A DNA stretch of 64,000 bases, taken from contig NZ_JAFBBD010000003.1 in assembly GCF_016906995.1 (NCBI RefSeq), forward strand, positions 248,001-312,000, read 5' to 3'. This DNA is from Spongiibacter marinus. Its GTDB lineage: Bacteria > Pseudomonadota > Gammaproteobacteria > Pseudomonadales > Spongiibacteraceae. Below the pieces are notes generated by a model, which saw only the letters and a list, made by a program, of their open reading frames with translations, made no database searches and was not told the DNA's origin. The position numbers and the translations under genes are program-made. Shown piece after piece: positions 51,990 to 64,000 of the stretch. The number at the start of each line of letters is the position of its first letter. Within the stretch, counting starts at the first letter, position 1.

Positions 51990-54611
51990 CTATACGTGAT
52001 TCACGTAATCTTTGACCGACTGCAAGGCAGCGGGGATCGCGGCAACATCGCTGCCGCCACCCTGCGCCATGTCTGGACGACCGCCGCCCTTGCCTCCGAC
52101 TGCCGCCGCAGCTTGCTTCATAATATCGCCCGCTTTGCAGCGACCCGTGAGGTCTTTCGTTACGCCGGCGACCAGCGATACTTTTTCGCCCTCGCCACTG
52201 GCCAGCAGCACCACACCTGAGCCCAACTTATTCTTCAGCTGGTCCATGCTATCGCGCAAGGTCTTCGCATCAGCGCCTTCCATATTAACGGCGAGGACGC
52301 TAATACCGTTGATCTCTTCCACCTCAGACAATAGATCGCGACTGCCCGCGGTTGCCAGCTTGGCCTTTAGACGCTCAAGTTCCTTTTGCTGTTCCCGGTG
52401 GCTACTCAGCAGCTGCGCAAGTTTGGCATCAAAATTTTCAGGCGTACTTTTCAATGCCGCACAAGCAGACTGCAGACGGCTGCGATCGCGCCCCGCTTCA
52501 TTTAGCGCTTCGGCTCCGGTTACCGCCTCAATTCGGCGCACACCGGCAGCAATGCCAGATTCCGCAACGATACGCATCACGCCAATATCGCCGGTGCGAC
52601 GAACATGGGTGCCGCCACACAACTCAACAGAGAAGTCGCCGCCCATGCTCAATACGCGCACGGTATCGCCATACTTCTCGCCAAACAACATCACCGCGCC
52701 CCGCTCTTTGGCGGAGTCGATATCGGTTTCCACAGTTTCAACCGCGGTATTTCGGCGAATTTCGTCATTCACCATCGCCTCTATTTTCTGCAACTGTTCC
52801 GCAGTTACCGCCTCACCGTGGGCAAAGTCAAAACGCAGGCGCTCGGCGGTTACCAGCGAGCCCTTTTGCGCTACGTGCTCACCCAGTACCTTGCGCAATG
52901 CGGCGTGAAGCAAATGGGTTGCCGAGTGATTCAGCGCGGTAGATTGGCGAATACTGGCATCTACTTCGGCATCTACAGCTTGGCCGGCAACCACTGCTCC
53001 CGTCGCAACCACGCCGATATGTACAAAGTGATCACCAGCCTTCTGGGTATCGCGCACTTCTATGCGTAAGCCTTCCGCGCGAATAACACCGCAGTCCCCT
53101 GCCTGGCCACCGGACTCAGCGTAGAAAGGCGTGCGATCCAGCACCACCAGAACATCATCACCCTCTTCCGCGCGTTCAGAGGGCTGACCATCACGCAGCA
53201 GTGCAATAATCTTGGCGTTGTCGCTCAGCGACTGATAGCCAGTGAAGGTGGTGGCGCCGTCCACGTCTAAACGCAGGTCGGCATCCATTTTGAAATTCGA
53301 TGCTGAGCGAGCACGCTGGCGCTGCGCCTCCATGGCCGCCTCAAACCCGTCCATATCCAACGTCAGGTCTTTCTCACGGGCGATATCGGCGGTAAGGTCC
53401 ACGGGGAAACCATAGGTATCGTATAAACGGAACACCGTTTCACCCGGGATTTGCTGCCCTTTAAGCTCACTCAGGTCTGCCTCGAGAATCTTCATCCCCT
53501 GGTTCAGTGTCTTCGCGAACTGCTCTTCTTCCTGGAGCAATGCTTTTTCAATCGCCCCCTGCAATTCACGTAGCTCGGGGTAGGCACTGCCCATTTCAAC
53601 AGCCAGGGCATCAACCAGTTTGTAAAAGAAGGGCTCGGTCGCCCCAAGCTTGTTGCCATGGCGCACTGCACGGCGAATTATCCGGCGCAACACATAGCCG
53701 CGCCCTTCGTTGGATGGCAGTACACCATCGGCAATCAAAAACGCGCAGGAGCGGATATGGTCAGCAATAACACGCAACGACGTGTGTTGACGGTCATCAA
53801 CACCCAGCACCCTGGCCGTCGCGGCAATGAGGTTGTCGAACAGGTCTATCTCGTAATTGCTGTGAACACCCTGCATCACCGCCGATATGCGTTCCAGCCC
53901 CATACCGGTGTCTACCGATGGCGCAGGCAGCTCAGTCATGGTGCCATCGGCATCGCGATTGAACTGCATGAATACGTTGTTCCAAATTTCGATGTAGCGG
54001 TCGCCGTCCTCATCCGGGCTCCCCGGAGGACCACCAGCTACATCTTCACCGTGGTCATAAAAAATTTCTGTACAGGGTCCACAAGGACCTGTGTCACCCA
54101 TCGACCAGAAGTTATCCGAGGCGTATTTGGCGCCCTTGTTGTCGCCGATACGCACCATGCGCTCAGCCGGAACACCAACTTCTTCATTCCATATTTTGTA
54201 GGCTTCATCATCGTCGGCATAAACCGTTACCCACAGGCGTGAGCTATCGATATTCAACCACTCTTTCGACGTTAAGAATTCCCACGCAAAGAGAATGGCA
54301 TCGCGCTTGAAATAGTCGCCAAAGCTAAAATTCCCCAGCATTTCGAAGAAGGTATGGTGGCGAGCGGTGTAGCCAACATTCTCCAAATCATTGTGCTTTC
54401 CCCCGGCGCGAACACAGCGCTGACTGCTGACCGCACGACTGTAATTGCGTTTATCGCGACCGAGGAACACGTCTTTAAATTGCACCATCCCCGCATTCGT
54501 AAAAAGCAACGTAGGGTCATTACCAGGTACCAGCGAACTACTGGCCACCGGGGTGTGTCCCTTGCTTTCAAAGTAGCGAATAAAGGCATCGCGGATAGCA
54601 GCGCTTTTCAT
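51990..54611 (-). CDS. alaS: Alanyl-tRNA synthetase
   Basis: 873 residues from the ATG at 54611; earlier in-frame codons are unnecessary. Class II core with [28 protein letters not shown] and motif 2 region [19 protein letters not shown] (about 85-105). The editing domain has [11 protein letters not shown] (about 555) and the zinc-site [13 protein letters not shown] (about 660). The C-terminal domain ends [12 protein letters not shown]. Full length and intact. Confidence 0.98.
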
Positions 54612-55869: not shown

Positions 55870-56049
55870 ATGAGTCGCTATCGTCCGCCCCGTCAACGAG
55901 GCTCTCGGTACATCACGCCCGAGGGCGAGCGCGCCCTTCGTGAAGAGCTGCGTCAACTGTGGAAAGTGGAACGCCCACAAGTCACCCAAACCGTGCACGA
56001 GGCGGCAAAGAATGGCGATCGATCGGAAAACGGCGACGCCGGCCAATAA
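55870..56049 (+). pseudogene. greB: Chromosomal greB, 5' fragment interrupted by the island
   Basis: 59 codons starting MSRYRPPRQRGSRYITPEGE. Residues 1-54 align with the N-terminal coiled coil of pseudomonad-type GreB up to the conserved GDRSEN motif; then the reading continues GDAGQ and stops. No other frame continues the gene. GreB normally has about 160-170 residues, so two thirds are missing. The break marks the left end of an accessory region; the missing 3' part should lie beyond the right edge if this was a clean insertion. A protein of 59 residues would lack the C-terminal domain and is unlikely to rescue backtracked polymerase. Confidence 0.85.
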
Positions 56050-56131
56050 CCCCATATAGGCATACTATTTAATTTATAAAATTGATTATTAAGCATTTAT
56101 TTAATAGTACACATACTCAATAAATATACTA
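56050..56131. other. AT-rich left-end region of the island with short repeats
   Basis: The 80 bp between the two greB sequences are about 80 percent A+T, unlike the flanks. ATACTATT occurs at 56062-56069 and 56126-56133, with an inverted near-copy AATAGTAC at 56103-56110. Such spaced repeats near an element end could be recombinase or transposase binding sites, but no recombinase gene is in view, so the mechanism is open. Confidence 0.4.
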
Positions 56132-56602
56132 TTAGGCGTATTCGATGTCCGTGATACGCCATCGGACAGGTTCAGAATCAATTTGTATCTCTGCCCAATC
56201 ACCAACCTCCTTCTTCAACAAGGCTCTCGCCATCGGAGAATCTATAGAGATATAGTCAGGGTGCTTAAAAATTTCATCGTAACCCGCTATTCGAAATCGC
56301 AACTTTTCGCCCCGGTCGTTTTCCACACCGACCCAAGCACCGAAGAAAACCTTTCCGGCCTGCTCAGCCCTGTGCTCTACAACTTTGAGGTTCTCAAGTC
56401 TATGTTTAAGGTAGCGAATCCGCCGGTCGATCTCCCTGAGCCTCTTTTTATTGTATTGGTAGTCCGCGTTTTCACTACGATCACCTTGGCCGGCAGCCCA
56501 TGAAACCTTCTGGGTGACTTCGCGCCGTTCGACACGCCAAAGCTCATCAAGCTCACTTTTGAGCTCTTCGTATCCTTGTTTGGTGATAAGGGGGGTGTTC
56601 AA
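56132..56602 (-). CDS. greB: Transcript cleavage factor GreB, island-borne complete copy
   Basis: 156 residues, full length, of the enteric/marine type (starts MNTPLITKQGYEELKSELDELWRVERREVTQ). The coiled-coil tip has acidic GDRSENADYQYNKKRLREIDRR (about 40-62), and the C-terminal FKBP-like domain has VFFGAWVGVEN...YDEIF...YISIDSPMARALLKKEVGD. It differs in its N terminus from the interrupted chromosomal copy, so it is not a duplicate of it. It is on the opposite strand and tail-to-tail with the fragment. It likely supplies GreB function after the insertion; this is inference. Confidence 0.94.
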   Translation of the reverse strand: MNTPLITKQGYEELKSELDELWRVERREVTQKVSWAAGQGDRSENADYQYNKKRLREIDRRIRYLKHRLENLKVVEHRAEQAGKVFFGAWVGVENDRGEKLRFRIAGYDEIFKHPDYISIDSPMARALLKKEVGDWAEIQIDSEPVRWRITDIEYA

Positions 56603-56612
56603 AAATAAAACC

Positions 56613-59600
56613 TCATAAAATATACGGAGTTAAGATCCTACCCCCCTCCAGCATCTGACATCCAGGCCCTAATATGCTACTTCTTCCACCGGTTTGGGGG
56701 GACACCTGGATCTGCGTGCTGATCCGCTCCTTCAAGGCGGGCACGTGCGAAATGACGCCGATCAGCTTGCCGTCCTGCTGCAGGCCCGCGAGGGTTTCCA
56801 AGGCGGTATCGAGGGCTTCCTCGTCTAGGGTGCCGAAGCCTTCATCCAGGAAGAGCGAATCCACCCGGACGTTCTTGCTCGCCATATGGGACAAGCCCAG
56901 AGCCAAGGACAGGCTGACGATAAAGCTCTCGCCGCCGGAAAGGTTCTTCGTGGAGCGAATCTCCCCCGCCTGATAGTTGTCGACCACGTTGAGCTCCAGA
57001 GGCTGAGCGTCGTCACGGATCAGCAAGTAGCGGTCTGTCATTTTCTGCAGTTGCCCGTTGGCATGACCAATCATCATCTCGAAGGTCAGCCCCTGGGCAA
57101 AATTACGGTATTTCTTACCGTCGGCGGAGCCGATCAATTCGTGCAGGTTTTCCCACCTGCGACACTCTTTTTTCTGAGCCTCGATAGCTGCCTGCTTTTC
57201 CTTTATCCGCTCTTTTGCAGCTGTGTTTTCACTTAGCTTGTGCTTGAGTGCGGCAATGATCTCCCGCTGCTCTTTCAAAGCCTCCAATTGCTCCCTAAAT
57301 TGGGGCTCGAGCTCTTCCAACGACTTTTCAGTGATCTTGCTGGCCATTTCCGTAGCTAGGCGTTTTTCCCGATCCTTCTGTCTGATTTTCAGATCGGCTT
57401 GACGCTCGTCCAGATCCTTGGCCGCGGCCGTCAACTCAGCCCGACCTTCAGAAGGCAAGATCGCCGTAAGGAAGTGTTCTTCATTTGAAAAGCCTATGGG
57501 CGCGAGTGCTGCGGCAAATTCATTTTCCAGCCTTGTCAGCTCTGGTTCTCGTAGGTCGATGCGTTTCTTCAGAGATTGGACGTGGGCCTGCGCGGTATTC
57601 CATTTTTGTTGGAGTTCATTATGCCGTTCTCTGGCCTATTTTTCGCAACTTCGGCGTCAGAAATCGCCTTGTTTAAACGACGCTCCTCATTGTCGGGATT
57701 CTTGTCGCCGTACAGTGCAGCACGCTCTTCACTTCCGGTGGCTTGTTCCTTTTCAAGGTCGCCAGGCGTTCCAGCTTTCCGGTCAGGGCGGTGCTTTGAG
57801 TTTCGATAACCGCATCCAGCCGCTTCACCTCGCTGTCGATGTCGGCAATCTGTTTCTCAATGGCCACGTTTTTCTTTACCTGGGCCTGCCATACTTTCTG
57901 CCGCGCTCTGAGGGATTCGATCAGTGATGAAATGTCCGCTTCAGGGATGTCCGCAATACCAAGCGGCTGGAGTTTCGTAATAACGACCTGCCTGCGTTCG
58001 GCAAAATCGACACGCAGTTTCACCAGGCCATCCTTCACGTCGGCCAGAGCTTTCTCGGCAGCCTTCTTGTCATTAGCTGCCGCTGACTCCAGCTTTTCAG
58101 CCTCTGTCAGGTTTTTACGGGCCAGGATCTCAGCTCCTTCGAGTTTCTTGATGACAGCTTCCTGATCCTCGGCTTTGCCAATCAGCCTAGTCAGGGCGTC
58201 GATCTTCTGTTCGGTTTCATCGGGGGTGGGTACATTCCCTTCCGCGAAGGGGTGTGCGGTTGCGCCGCAAAGAGGACAAGGCTTGCCGTCTTCCAGTTTT
58301 ACCCAGTGATCTTCAAGCTCCGTAATTTTGGCTAGGAAGGCCATTTCACGAAGCAGAGTTTCCTTTTCGGTGCGATATTCCCGCAACAAGCGGTCTCCCA
58401 ACAACTGACTCAAAGCATCCTTGCCCTGCTGAAGCTGTTTTGAGGCGTCCTCCAGCTCCTGCGTCCAAGTGCCGGATTGCTTCTGACAGTCGTCGAGTGA
58501 CTTTGCCGCCAGTCCCAGAGCCGTCGTGGCCGTTTCTTGAGCGGCTTGCTTTTGAAGGATATCATTTTGTTTGGAGAGCAGGCCGCTCAACTGTTCCTCA
58601 ACACCAGCCAAGCCGCCGATCAGCCATTCGTCCTGCGCATGCCCTTTGAGGTAGCCATACACAAGATCCAATATATCATGAGCCTTGGATCGCTTATCCT
58701 GTTCTTCAAGTCGGGCTTTTTTGTCAGCGTTAATCCTGACCGCATCCTTCCTACAACCCTCATCTCCTTCCGAAACAGCTTTTTTCTGGTCAGCAAGTTT
58801 CTGATCCAGGGAGCGAACCTTCTGCAATGTAGGCGTAGCCGCTTTCAGCGCTTCTTTTGCCCGAGCGGTTTGTTGCTCAGCCGATTTCAGTACTTCGGCC
58901 TGTTCCTTGGCGGACGATTCCAGTCCAGGAAGAGCCTCTTCCTCAGCTTTCAAGCCCGCTCTGTCATCCGCCTGTTGTTTGCGGGTGGCGGTGAGCGTTG
59001 CGTATGCGCCGTCCAGTGAGGCGGCACTCAAAGCCCGGCCCAACTTTTCACGATCCGGTTTGGACGCCTCGATATCGCCCTGCAGCTTGCTCGCTTCATC
59101 GCCCAGGCTGATAATTTCCTTGTTCAGTCCGTCGATGGTGGTGAGCCAAGCAATGGCCTTCCCTGTTTCAGCGGATTTGGCGGCAAGGTCTGTCTCTTCC
59201 TTCTGCTTTGTCTCGAGCACCCGTCCAATCTCTTGCTCCTGCTCCGGGTCAAGAATCACAATGCCTACTGTTTCAGCCAAGAGCAGGTTCAGCTTGTCCC
59301 GGTGCTCGCGCTGTCGTTCATGGACACGGATGGATATCTGGCTGTATATCTCTGTTCCCGTGATCTGCTCCAGAATTGGAGCCCGATCATCCGGTGCCGC
59401 CTGAAGGAACACTGCGAAGCGCCCCTGGGCCAACAACATGGAGCGGGTGAAACGATCAAAGTCCATACCGGTAGCCGACTCGATCTGGTCGGCAACTCCT
59501 CTGAGTTTAGATTCGAAAATCTCGCCGGATTCGGCATTGGCGATTTCGTGCTTCGGAGCCTGGAGTTCGCCATCCGGCTTCCTGCGTGCCCGGTGTTGGC

Positions 59601-59889
59601 TCCAGTGACAACGGTAACGACCAGACTGGGTTTCGAAAGTCACCTCGGCAAAGCATTCGCCGGTCTGGCGGGATATGATTTCGTTTCCGCTCTTGGTGAC
59701 CTTATTCAGGCGAGGCGTCCGCCCGTAAAGAGCAAGACAAATAGCGTCGAGAATCGTGGTCGTCCCCGCTCCGGTGGGACCGGTGATGGCAAAGATGCCA
59801 TCAGATGCGAAGGCCGGGTGCTCCAGGTCGATTTTCCATTCGCCGACCAGCGAGTTCAGATTCTTGAAACGTACCTGCAGTATTCTCAT
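56613..59889 (-). pseudogene. sbcC: sbcC, exonuclease ATPase subunit, disrupted
   Basis: The coding sequence spans about 1,090 codons, normal for SbcC, in three frames. The N-terminal part (59889 down to about 57763) has the Rad50-type ATPase start but its Walker A reads GPTGAGTTT: codon 43 (59761-59763) is ACG Thr in place of the invariant Lys. A one-base deletion near 57763 moves the frame to EKEQATGSEERAALYGDKNPDNEE; a second shift near 57637-57643 in an A-rich run (GCGAAAAATAGG) moves it again to RHNELQQKWNTAQAHVQSLK. The rest has LSGGES and the Walker B SLFLDEGFGTLDEE. It follows sbcD by 11 bp. With three lesions the product cannot be functional unless the sequence is faulty. Confidence 0.85.
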
Positions 59890-59900
59890 CGACAGCCTTT

Positions 59901-61127
59901 CTATTCCGCCTGTAAGTCGTCTTCATAGAGAGACGAAACCGTTTCCTGGTAGGCTCGAATCAACTCCGGGCGCTGATCTTCAGGCACGTCATGAACGGCG
60001 AGGCATCGTTCGAATACGTCGTTCACGTTTAGATCGTCGAGTGTTTCCTCTTCGTGAATTTTCCCCAGAACACGGTCGATAATGCGATTGTTCTTGATTC
60101 TGAGAATTTCTATTTGGGTGCCGAACATCGCTGCCTCCAGGCGTTCACACAGGTCGCCAATAACCTCAGTGCCGTCGTAAATGACTTCGAGCCAGACTTG
60201 GGAGTCCGTTGCCGACAATTCGAGGATGCGGTTTGAGATGCCGTCCCAGTCTCCTTTGACGCGCTCGAGCTTTTGAAACACCGGTACGTCGATCAGCTGT
60301 ACAGATGCAGCCGTGCTGTGGAACTCAACCTCGCAAACGCTCTTCTGCTGTTTTGCCTCTCCGGACCCCATGGGCAGAGGAGAGCCGCTGTACCGAATGG
60401 TTTCGGAGCCGTTCACCTTTTGCGGGACGTGGAGGTGACCAAGCGCTAGATAGTTGAAGCAGGCTGGAAAAATCCCGGCCGTCACGTGAGCCAAGGAACC
60501 GACATAGAGTTCGCGCACGCCATCACCATCGACGGTTTGTCCGCCAGCGGTGAACAGATGCCCCGTGCCAACGATGGGAATATCGGCCCCGAGTTCCTCT
60601 CGCTTCTGCTCCGCCAAGGCGGCGACGGCGGCGTAATGAGTGCGGATGCCGTCAATCAGCTTTCGTTCCTCCTCAACACTCTCACCAACCTCCGCCACGC
60701 GGATATCCCTGTCGCGGAGGTAGGGTACGGCGCAAACAATGAGTTCCGGACCGTCCTGCTCATTACGGAGCACCAGCACTTCGTCTTCCCGGGATGCAGT
60801 GCTACTCCCGACCACGTGGACATCAAGGGCCTTGAGCAGCTCCTTGGGAGCATTGAGAAAGGACGGAGAATCGTGGTTGCCCGCTACAACGACAATATGC
60901 CGACAAGATGAGGCGGCCACCCGGCATAGGAAACGCTAATAGAGCTCCTGGGCGCGATTGCTCGGAGCACTGGTGTCAAAGACATCACCCGCCACCAGCA
61001 AGGCATCAATTTCATTCTGCTGAATCGTCTCAGCCAGCCAGGTTAGAAAAGCCTCGAACTCCTCTTAGCGCTTTCTGCCGTACAAAGTTCGACCGATGTG
61101 CCAGTCCGATGTATGGAGAATTTTCAC
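59901..61127 (-). pseudogene. sbcD: sbcD, exonuclease subunit, with two in-frame stop codons
   Basis: A GTG start at 61127 follows AAGGAG and gives a 408-codon frame of normal SbcD length: KILHTSDWHIGRTLYGRKR, then TAA at codon 21 (61067-61065), EEFEAFLTWLAE...VAGDVFDTSAPSNRAQELY, TAG at codon 64 (60938-60936), RFLCRVAASSCRHIVVVAGNHDSP onward. Both stops stand where related proteins have tyrosine. All metallophosphoesterase motifs (DWH, GDVFD, GNHDS, GTGHL, GHLH) are intact, so decay is recent or the stops are errors. The frame downstream of the second stop remains open to the end. Confidence 0.85.
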
Positions 61128-61145: not shown

Positions 61146-61394
61146 TCAAACGTGTTCTTCATGAGGCTCTTCGTTCACCCCAACACTTTTGAGCAAAGCC
61201 GTATACTGCTCATTATCTTCTTTGAGTCTTTGTATTATTTGACGTGCCGCCGCCTGCATCTCTGGCACTTCAACAGGTGCCGAGCCACGTTCAAACAAAC
61301 CGCACAAATGCGAATATTCATTATTGATTCTATCCGTCAATACAGCAGGAATTCTTTCCTCACCAAAGAAAATACGTAAAGTTTCGTCAGTCAT
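61146..61394 (-). CDS. Hypothetical protein upstream of sbcD
   Basis: 82 residues from the ATG at 61394 (TDETLRIFFGEERIPAVLTDRINNEYSHL...), acidic and helical, with no membrane segment or known motif. It ends 18 bp before the sbcD start in the same direction, so it was likely in one transcript with sbcDC. The family is not recognised. The start is uncertain; a TTG eight codons earlier is possible. Confidence 0.5.
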   Translation of the reverse strand: MTDETLRIFFGEERIPAVLTDRINNEYSHLCGLFERGSAPVEVPEMQAAARQIIQRLKEDNEQYTALLKSVGVNEEPHEEHV

Positions 61395-61723
61395 ACCCTG
61401 GTCTGGATATCGCTTCAATGCAACGATTGATACGCTAAAACTGTTAAATTACTTTAGGAAGGGTGTTGGTGTCTCGTCAAAATTTTTCGACCCTACATAC
61501 GACGTGATTCCAGCTGGAAAATGGTCGTGGAGTTATATCGAACAGTGGCGAAAATCACTTGGTGTTGACGAGGAAGTAAAAGTCAAATCTTGATATGCAG
61601 AAGTCCAAACCTGATCTGACACATCCTTTTTAAAAGGAGAAAGTTACCCTTTTTGATAAAGGTGTCAAATCTTATATCAAAACAAAAGGTAACTCTCACG
61701 ATCCATGCTGACCTTAATCGACT
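61395..61723. other. Region without a confident gene; possible ORF remnant
   Basis: On the plus strand the stretch 61420-61593 reads as protein-like sequence (LKLLNYFRKGVGVSSKFFDPTYDV...KWSWSYIEQWRKSLG) ending in a stop at 61593, but its only starts lie antisense to the sbcD-upstream gene and have no ribosome binding site. It may be the 3' end of a truncated gene. The rest holds the promoter region of the small genes that follow. Confidence 0.3.
61642..61694. promoter_or_regulatory. Imperfect inverted repeat before the small-gene cluster
   Basis: AGTTACCCTTTTTGATA (61642-61658) is mirrored by a segment at 61675-61694 whose complement reads AGTTACCTTTTGTTTTGATA. The pair is 30 bp upstream of the first small gene. 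It may be an operator or a leader hairpin; without a strong T-run I do not call a terminator. Confidence 0.4.
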
Positions 61724-62651: not shown

Positions 62652-62915
62652 CTAGCCGCGATGTTTGGTGGAAAGCGCCATTGAAGTCAGGACAAGTTCG
62701 AGCCCTTCATGCGGATCGACTCCTAAGGCCCGACAGTATTCCACATACTCAATGATGTCGATGCGGCGTCGATCCTGCTCCATTTTGCCTAGCACAGAAT
62801 GGTGCCGGCCTACCAACGTAGAAACAGCACGTAGCGACAAGCCTTGTTCTTCACGCTTGGCCCTGAGCCAAGTGCGAAGCTTGTCATAATGTTGTGAATA
62901 GGCAGATGGCTTCAT
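62652..62915 (-). CDS. XRE-family helix-turn-helix repressor
   Basis: 87 residues from the ATG at 62915. The HTH covers about 12-65 (LRTWLRAKREEQGLSLRAVSTLVGRHHSVLGKMEQDRRRIDIIEYVEYCRALG). The open frame upstream is an artefact of the operator region. It is divergent from the unknown gene at 62983 and from the helicase, and two 19-bp palindromes lie between the two starts, so autoregulation and control of the divergent genes are likely. A phage-type or restriction-control (C-protein-like) role fits the size. Confidence 0.85.
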   Translation of the reverse strand: MKPSAYSQHYDKLRTWLRAKREEQGLSLRAVSTLVGRHHSVLGKMEQDRRRIDIIEYVEYCRALGVDPHEGLELVLTSMALSTKHRG

Positions 62916-62963
62916 TGTCTCGATAGTAGAGACAATGAAGAATGTCGCGAAATTCGAGACATT
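62910..62963. promoter_or_regulatory. Tandem palindromic operators between the XRE gene and the helicase operon
   Basis: Operator 1: CTTCATTGTCTC (62910-62921) and GAGACAATGAAG (62929-62940) are perfect 12-bp arms around a 7-bp spacer. Operator 2: AATGTCGCGAA (62941-62951) and TTCGAGACATT (62953-62963) match at 10 of 11 positions. Both contain the same 19-bp core, TGTC-K-CGA-N3-T-M-GAGACA (62916-62934 and 62943-62961), 27 bp centre to centre. The XRE start codon lies in operator 1, so the repressor would block its own start region and the divergent promoter. Confidence 0.8.
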
Positions 62964-62982
62964 CAGCCTTCTACACGTGCCT

Positions 62983-63516
62983 ATGAAACCACTCCGCATC
63001 CACCCGGAGCTGCCCACCCTTTTGCAATCAGATCAGCTCGACACCTTTACAGTGCCGGAGTTGACAGCTGCCTATATGGCCTTACCCGCGCGGTCCCAGA
63101 AAACGGCGAAAGCCTGCCGTCAATTCGTGTACCGCAATGTATTGCGCCTTACAGAGATAGCGGTATTACAACGTGTTGAACGCAGCGACGGCAGGCCTCG
63201 TTATCGGTACGTTGGGGCTGAACAAGAAGGGCACCTGAAATTCGAGCACAATCAGCCACCCTCGGGTCATCACAATGCCAGGAACGAGACCGAGCTGCGT
63301 AGCCTCCACGACAAACTACACCGCTATAACCGGGAAATCCTGGCGGTCATCGGTGAAACCGAGGAATACGATGCCCTATGCAGCGAATTCCCGGAGCTAC
63401 GCAGTTCCGTTCAACAACGTTACAACGACGCGCGAGACCACTGCACCAAAATGCTCGGCAGGGTACGAGCACTGGAATTCGTGATCGCCGATCATCTTCC
63501 GGCCACCCAATCATGA
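62983..63516 (+). CDS. Unknown protein encoded before the helicase
   Basis: 177 residues from the ATG at 62983; an ATG at 62935 would add 16 codons, but that codon and the next nine lie inside the operators, so I prefer the later start. An N-terminal part (about 1-75, FTVPELTAAYMALPARSQKTAKACRQFVYRNVLRL) looks like a winged-helix DNA-binding fold, followed by a coiled-coil region (about 95-165). No family is recognised. Its stop overlaps the helicase start (ATGA), so the two are made together. Confidence 0.65.
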   Translation: MKPLRIHPELPTLLQSDQLDTFTVPELTAAYMALPARSQKTAKACRQFVYRNVLRLTEIAVLQRVERSDGRPRYRYVGAEQEGHLKFEHNQPPSGHHNARNETELRSLHDKLHRYNREILAVIGETEEYDALCSEFPELRSSVQQRYNDARDHCTKMLGRVRALEFVIADHLPATQS

Positions 63517-64000
63517 CTCTTCGACAGTGGCAGGCTGAGTGTATCACTCGGGCGTACCAAGCCTATTGTGGTGGCCAGCCGCACTTCCTGTGTCTAGCAA
63601 CGCCAGGGGCCGGTAAGACGTGGATGGCCTCCGCTTTGGCCAAGCGTTTGTTGGACGCAGGCTTGGTTGACCTGGTGGTTTGTTTCGCCCCCTCGGTCAT
63701 CGTGGCAGACGATTTTCGGACTGAGCTAGAAACCCAGTTTGAGGAATCCTTTGACAGCCTGCTGGGCTCACGCGGACGCACCCTGACGTACCAGGCGATG
63801 CTGAGTATCAACGACAGCTTCTGGGACCTGTTCCGACGCCAGCGGGTATTCGCGATATTTGACGAAATACACCACTGCGCCGGGCAAACGCCGGAGACAG
63901 CAAACGCCTGGGGCGAACGGGTCATTTCGCGAGTTCAGGGGCAGGCCGCCTATACGCTGGCGCTCACCGGAACACCCTGGCGTTCCGACGCCATCCCTAT
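63513..64000 (+). CDS. DExH-box (superfamily 2) helicase, cut by the window end
   Basis: The first 162 codons are in view, starting LRQWQAECITRAY (Q-motif-like), with Walker A CLATPGAGKTWMASALA (about 29-45), motif Ia-like VVCFAPSVIVADDF, DEIHH (motif II, about 117) and motif III-like LTGTPWRSD (about 153). This is the restriction-type SF2 helicase core of type I/III enzymes and several phage-defence systems. The remainder, including any nuclease or methylase partner, lies to the right. It is coupled to the unknown gene before it and is under the XRE operator. Confidence 0.85.
   Translation, partial: MTLRQWQAECITRAYQAYCGGQPHFLCLATPGAGKTWMASALAKRLLDAGLVDLVVCFAPSVIVADDFRTELETQFEESFDSLLGSRGRTLTYQAMLSINDSFWDLFRRQRVFAIFDEIHHCAGQTPETANAWGERVISRVQGQAAYTLALTGTPWRSDAIP

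Follow-up and report, generated by a model that had tools for sequence, protein, structure and literature searches.

Why does a genome carry a broken greB gene and, just beside it, a second greB that is complete and different? This question arose from a 64,000-nucleotide stretch of the 3.57-Mb Spongiibacter marinus genome (G000 in our collection; contig positions 248001-312000), hereafter called the window. The initial annotation, made from the letters of the window alone, proposed that a mobile island had cut the chromosomal greB and restored its function with an allele of its own. We followed this proposal into the sequence beyond the window, into relatives of S. marinus and into other genomes that carry an island at the same codon.

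An exact insertion in the greB gene of Spongiibacter marinus

The host greB starts at position 55870 and can be followed on the plus strand for 56 codons (55870..56037), ending with GDRSENGD. After the last host base, 56037, come three codons derived from the insert and a TAA stop codon at 56047-56049. We placed this boundary by alignment to the intact greB of a close relative, G011, whose M23 and esterase neighbours are 92% and 99% identical to those of S. marinus at the protein level. The break lies between codons 56 and 57. Codons 57 onwards are found at contig positions 314659-315000, starting 2.66 kb beyond the window end. Both flanks align without gaps to the single uninterrupted greB of G011, meeting between GGCGAC and TATATC. 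The island thus went in exactly: no host base is missing, and the same alignment rules out a target-site duplication, which we had considered. The insert measures 10,621 bp, from 56038 to 66658 in window numbering, and reaches past the window end to a right end at contig position 314658.

Two greB copies side by side might also go back to an old duplication of the gene that later underwent deletion or rearrangement, with no insertion at all. The initial annotation had favored insertion and had named the lack of a greB 3′ part on the far side as grounds for doubting it. That 3′ part is present, and the empty site in G011 is uninterrupted, making deletion within a duplication barely conceivable.

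The insert begins with six bases, GCCGGC (56038..56043), that fall between the host greB and the element end and are variable when left junctions are compared. The left island end follows, CAATAACCCC...ATACTATT (56044..56071); in inverted orientation it imperfectly matches the right end, TTATAACCCC...TACTATT. The left end of a mobile island had been predicted at 56.03-56.05 kb, in agreement with this start. The second greB (greB2) lies 83 bp on, tail to tail with the host fragment as originally described. It occupies 56132..56602 on the minus strand, encodes 156 amino acids, scores 225 bits against the NCBIfam greB model (cut-off 171) and, besides the GreA paralogue, is the only complete GreB found in the G000 genome. 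The sequence GCCGGCCAA, which occurs just after the break and again within greB2, had been offered as a possible trace of the recombination site. We discarded this idea: the copy within greB2 occupies 56486-56494 of the minus strand instead of 56489-56497, there is a third copy at 52980, and the first six bases are GCCGGC, the variable junction 6-mer.

The island greB is immediately preceded on its strand by sbcD and sbcC genes that are both broken (56613-60920). SbcD lacks approximately its first 70 residues (59901..60920, minus strand; 274 bits, model positions 73-378 of 380). The N-terminal part of SbcC (57673..59889, minus strand; 361 bits, model positions 1-654 of 1047) is out of frame with its C-terminal part (56613..57458, minus strand; 216 bits, positions 804-1031). 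No match to sbcD was found in the relatives G011 and G014. A 90-residue ORF (61146..61418, minus strand) resembles the C terminus of the candidate defence protein PDC-S06 (97.6 bits, positions 707-787 of 790); apart from this remnant, a PADLOC scan of the cargo returned just weak or generic matches. The cargo within the window ends with a helix-turn-helix regulator (62652..63017, minus strand), a protein of unassigned function (62935..63516, plus strand) and the start of a ResIII-type helicase of 515 residues in full (63378..64000, plus strand), which continues past the window end. The unassigned protein is paired with the helicase both here and on Pseudomonas plasmids. Its relatives (27% identity) and those of the helicase (41%), also behind a helix-turn-helix gene, adjoin gmtY on the plasmids pNY8896-DIM and pAFM-PA19-3158 (L005 7153-9426 and L111 11555-13833).

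Beyond the window, the insert contains the C-terminal half of gmtX (contig 312981-313271; 60.4 bits against the GmtX model, cut-off 40), followed by IS3-family ORFs (contig 313268-314481). GmtX belongs to the GmtY-GmtZ-GmtX trio, whose genes are adjacent in gamma-mobile-trio (GMT) islands (Mahata et al., 2024, Nat Microbiol 9:3268); as passages on these islands describe, they are found on plasmids as well as chromosomes and differ in their cargo. A search of the whole G000 genome gave no GmtY match at E 1e-30, and neither GmtY nor GmtZ matched above chance within the insert. The ends and the insertion site are those of islands with the full trio. The S. marinus insert is thus a decayed GMT island in which half of gmtX is left and gmtY and gmtZ are gone. 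The rightward search that had been suggested located the missing 3′ end of greB; the recombinase genes expected there have been lost from this copy.

Islands at the same greB codon in other genomes

We scanned a genome collection, which may leave out G000 itself, with a pattern that joins the element end (including ATAACCC) to the GDRSEN codons. As the pattern contains an in-frame stop at the G000 junction spacing, an intact greB cannot match it. We obtained 18 matches, where a rough estimate from the pattern length gives a chance expectation of about one. Seventeen of the matches have an identical 36-bp span and are split greB genes; 16 of these were also recognized as GreB by tblastn, and the 17th (L081), at a contig end, was recognized by eye from its bases. 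The remaining match, in Marinobacterium (L085), has a different spacing and no GreB match and was dropped as chance. The 17 loci comprise eight in Acinetobacter and one each in Pseudomonas, Pseudoalteromonas, Wohlfahrtiimonas, Ignatzschineria, Methyloprofundus and Aliiglaciecola; the others belong to a Moraxellaceae, a gammaproteobacterial MAG and a Prolixibacteraceae MAG contig. The split greB on this last contig (L072, G397) looks gammaproteobacterial, possibly reflecting assembly contamination.

The intact islands share one order: greB 3′ piece, approximately 110 bp, gmtY, gmtZ, gmtX, greB, cargo, left end, greB 5′ piece. In these islands, greB is the fourth and last gene of the trio operon. 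The gmtX gene precedes greB in all 14 fetched pattern loci with a visible gmtX, with a second gmtX-like piece ahead of greB in one of them, G407. At the 12 loci with both on the fetched stretch, the island greB is always opposite to the host greB pieces. In both trio islands that were tested, GmtY, GmtZ and GmtX scored above their curated NCBIfam cut-offs. Pseudomonas G401 is an exception to this layout: the fetched 28.6 kb showed only 51 residues of gmtY and neither gmtX nor gmtZ, and the island greB is placed elsewhere, in the same orientation as the host pieces.

A GreB search of the 17 genomes with pattern matches recovered the 3′ piece in 14, and a shorter C-terminal piece in G409. A complete extra GreB was present in 15, with G406 containing a second complete one, and in seven genomes the 5′, complete and 3′ genes lay on one contig.

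GmtY offered a second route to such islands. Of the 369 genomes surveyed from the class, 3 had a GmtY, as did 9 of the 390 from the order and, within Acinetobacter, 12 of the 99 species. This route yielded five further genomes (G520, G260, G079, G841 and G834), in each of which a complete GreB accompanies 5′ and 3′ pieces of a split greB. Together, the junction pattern (17) and GmtY (five) supplied 22 more split greB genes of the kind that the initial annotation had suggested looking for. A complete GreB, as counted by tblastn-type matches and not by function, was present in 21 of the 23 split-greB genomes (G000, 17 by pattern and five by GmtY); it was not found in G397 and G409, both of which look like incomplete or mixed assemblies. 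In G723, broken gmtY and gmtX genes lie beside a complete greB, and host greB pieces are not visible.

Genomes with other GMT islands had one uninterrupted greB and no split pieces in all seven cases tested. G772 has an additional weak partial GreB match (34%) inside another long frame. We also considered a viral origin and set it aside: no viral contig matched the junction pattern, and no phage record matched GmtY.

In a GmtY tree of 41 rows, the 18 rows from greB-bearing elements form one clade (100/100). The tree excludes broken or partial GmtY (L088/L089, L093, L101, L104 and L108) and duplicates. Two rows were classed as greB-inserted on other grounds, G406 (L096) only via the split greB L081 in its assembly, and G834 (L145) since the 3′ piece is 2.3 kb from gmtY. 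In the other 23 rows, greB was not seen beside gmtY, as judged for the 10 plasmid rows by the annotation of 6-9 kb around gmtY; among the 13 genome rows, GreBs were counted in 12, all except G148. Where gmtX is listed, the plasmid GMT islands outside the clade have genes other than greB after it.

One could still suppose that greB was hit by chance, by an ordinary accessory island that happened to have a greB among its cargo. Within the window alone, the two greB facts could indeed be unrelated, and greB2 falls outside the main operon lineage described below. Yet the split recurs at the same codon with a greB aboard: one pattern found it with identical spacing in 17 further greB genes, GmtY led to five more, and the GmtY proteins form a single clade. 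We consider a chance landing highly improbable. We instead regard it as very probable, from these sequence comparisons, that the S. marinus insert is a decayed member of a distinct GMT lineage that has greB as its preferred site and supplies a replacement greB.

The island greB genes have a history of their own. In a GreB tree calculated without G163, whose sequence had been extracted in a wrong frame, 13 of 17 operon GreBs and the host piece of G394 form one 14-row clade (98/87) that spans host families and contains 12 rows at 100/100. The four operon GreBs outside this clade are those of G407, G723 and the Halomonas and Pseudomonas plasmid copies. Host greB 3′ pieces mostly grouped by host. 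The greB of the G260 island (G260:C24:136713-137171, L052) groups with host-type GreB, as does that of G401, and the G000 island greB groups with host-type GreBs of other families and not with the operon lineage. With several operon and island greBs outside the main clade, greB appears to have been exchanged several times. The simplest account of the S. marinus island is that it lost the trio together with the operon greB and holds another greB instead. The earlier proposal that the element restores function with its own allele fits the presence of a complete greB; the allele in S. marinus is not of the main element lineage. Among pairs of island-type greB, 100 of 231 have a dS from 0.1 to 2; their median dN/dS is 0.044 and, by this measure, island-type greB is under strong purifying selection.

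Junction sequences and a circular record

The islands share their ends as well as their site. The right end, TTATAACCCC (once TTACAACCCC), abuts the native TAY codon in all 16 right junctions printed; in G260 and G079, the right end is TTAGAACC. On the left side, six bases separate the host GA[N] codon from the element end, and 18 junctions contain 17 different 6-mers. An ATACT motif, scored by eye, follows in 17 of the 18 left ends, the exception being G406. Only three of the 18 left 6-mers equal one of the 14 greB 6-mers that occupy this place in 91 intact genes. As the other 15 match none of these, most donors are unseen.

One island occurs in two forms. The plasmid pTHAF12_a (NZ_CP045400) of Halomonas sp. 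THAF12 contains an island of the greB lineage that lies away from greB. A second record from this strain, pTHAF12_b (NZ_CP045401.1, L114; 47,894 bp), consists of the same island plus the bases GGTGTA joining its ends. It has no listed replication or transfer gene and carries mercury and copper genes. The record NZ_CP045401 appears to be a GMT island in circular form, although assembly could also have collapsed a tandem copy into it. In pTHAF12_a, the left 6-mer reads TACACC, the reverse complement of the GGTGTA join; the same six bases come after the site in the greB of Pseudomonas G401.

In Tn554, the junction 6-mer is a stamp of the previous site. By analogy, we infer that the left 6-mer of the greB islands would record the previous insertion site. 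If so, TACACC suggests that the pTHAF12_a island came from a greB, and the many other 6-mers suggest that plasmids or other sites serve as vehicles.

The resemblance to the Tn554 family (Tn554 and Tn6188) extends to gene layout. In the passages on this family, its members have two tyrosine recombinases, one of them long, and a third protein, show six-base junction sequences and insert into a conserved gene, radC. A trio-bearing greB island likewise has integrase domains in GmtY and, weakly, in GmtZ, which the S. marinus copy lacks, and the greB islands have six-base junction sequences, with no target duplication at the S. marinus site. The site here is greB and not radC, however, and the passages on Tn554 do not mention a replacement radC. 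The likeness drawn here is one of layout and junctions.

Variable coupling sequences at the junction and a circular intermediate are also features of Tn916-type conjugative transposons. Variable junction bases and a circle are thus common to both, whereas Tn916-type elements have one integrase, use many sites and bring no replacement gene.

Inverted island-type greB genes at the native locus

To follow the fate of such islands, we took a census of greB in 99 Acinetobacter species, with one genome per species. Seventy-one species have an intact native greB, seven have a split native greB and an island greB, 16 have only an island-type greB, and five gave no hit. An intact native greB together with an island-type greB was found in none of the 99. 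All 16 displaced loci adjoin the tRNA-Ser gene or a neighbour gene of the native locus (both in eight), and in all 16 the island-type greB is inverted at that locus. Among the 78 native-type loci, we examined the best 30; all 30, including four that are split by islands, have the other orientation. The 16 displaced genes are 80-93% identical to the island greB of A. modestus. None of the 16 species has a GmtY of the greB lineage, and one of them (G808) has a GmtY of another lineage.

Two loci stand out. In G792, the C-terminal half of gmtX (E 1e-41) lies between a remnant of the native greB 3′ part (E 6e-8) and an island-type greB. In G394 (G394:C38:117025-132461), an inverted island-type greB at the native locus has itself been split by an island of the same lineage. 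We also built a tree of the neighbour gene from 42 species, which covers 11 of the 16 displaced species, as the neighbour gene was insufficiently long on the fetched stretch of the other five. In this tree, the state "displaced without island" requires six changes, of which four or more fall on supported branches, and G394 groups with two displaced species (100/99). Thus, GMT islands of the greB lineage appear to displace the host gene repeatedly.

We considered whether the inverted greB genes of Acinetobacter were acquired otherwise, by homologous exchange or through another element. Consistent with such an origin, no convincing island or native greB remnant was found at 15 of the 16 loci. 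Yet all 16 genes are inverted as an island greB would be, their identity to the A. modestus island greB is high, G792 retains remnants of gmtX and of the native greB, arranged as expected, and G394 shows an inverted copy split a second time. A separate origin is therefore quite unlikely, and the inverted genes may be read as scars of GMT islands.

A further alternative is that the operon greB serves transposition or the expression of the recombinase operon, with takeover of the host function a by-product. Its position as the last gene of the trio operon fits this reading, as does its presence on plasmid-borne copies, around which no split greB is seen. Nonetheless, islands with a broken trio retain a complete greB (G000, G401 and G723), in two cases a different one; the 16 displaced Acinetobacter species have an island-type greB without a GmtY of the greB lineage; and the 23 GmtY rows of other lineages have no adjoining greB. 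We consider a helper role unlikely as the main explanation.

Returning to greB as a replacement for the gene that the island breaks, we infer from sequence the excision and targeting, the catalytic roles of the trio proteins, the order of moves, complementation by the island greB and the cost of GreB loss. GmtY and GmtZ, predicted tyrosine recombinases, would act with GmtX to excise the island as a circle that carries six bases of its old site. The circle would then enter a greB immediately ahead of the Y codon that comes after GDRSEN[A/G][D/E]. The host gene would be broken, but the fourth gene of the operon would substitute for it, making the insertion cheap for the host. Sites on plasmids other than greB may serve as vehicles between cells. 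As an island decays, selection would retain its greB, which would be left inverted at the host locus as the host gene, open to being hit again by another such island. The S. marinus locus would be a halfway stage, with the trio broken, the native greB split and the replacement intact. The idea that the element maintains itself by supplying its own greB fits this scheme, to which we would add that an island-type greB can outlast its island as a host gene. In sum, this one GMT lineage probably acts as a recurrent engine of gene displacement, breaking greB, replacing it at once and, after decay, leaving an inverted copy available for the next round.

The greB islands differ from GMT islands as described in those passages in that they use one greB codon, have greB as the fourth gene of the operon and seem to leave inverted replacements. 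A passage from mSphere (2025) describes a Vibrio isolate whose two GMT islands are identical and occupy different syntenic regions. The text matches to "greb" that we examined were names of people or of an author group, and the main text of PMC7823893 contains no "greb". Within the literature searched, whose scope did not extend to Mahata et al. (2024), we found no description of an element that breaks, substitutes for and takes over a core transcription gene. The passages came from PMC12715929, PMC12259885, PMC12039261, PMC6381643, PMC7902594, PMC3788773, PMC3414803, PMC11368177 and PMC9652813.

If the proposed scheme is right, a mobile element is the source of a core transcription factor in approximately one-sixth of the Acinetobacter species sampled, and the displacement of conserved genes gains a concrete, stepwise mechanism. 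Such elements would provide a direct route for the foreign replacement of a conserved gene, with an empty site, a fresh island, a decayed island, an inverted replacement and re-invasion as visible stages. The genome signature, a six-base junction and an inverted greB, would allow events to be counted and perhaps the earlier place of each island to be traced. Elements that preserve the function of their target are well known, SCCmec in rlmH among them, which restores the end of its target gene. SCCmec does so by rebuilding part of the gene at the junction, whereas the greB islands supply a whole separate gene, usually in the opposite orientation.

Lastly, we surveyed 21 genomes of the family to which S. 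marinus belongs. The split greB is that of G000, and in 19 genomes the native greB is divergent from the M23 gene. In G014, of the same genus as G000, a greB of another type is inverted between the M23 and esterase genes (L034 8683-9561), at a locus that includes a ferredoxin gene, and no native greB was found in this genome. G014 looks like a finished greB displacement. In other families of the order, L048 (G030) and L064 (G074) contain a greB of the G014 type that, as in G014, has the same direction as M23.
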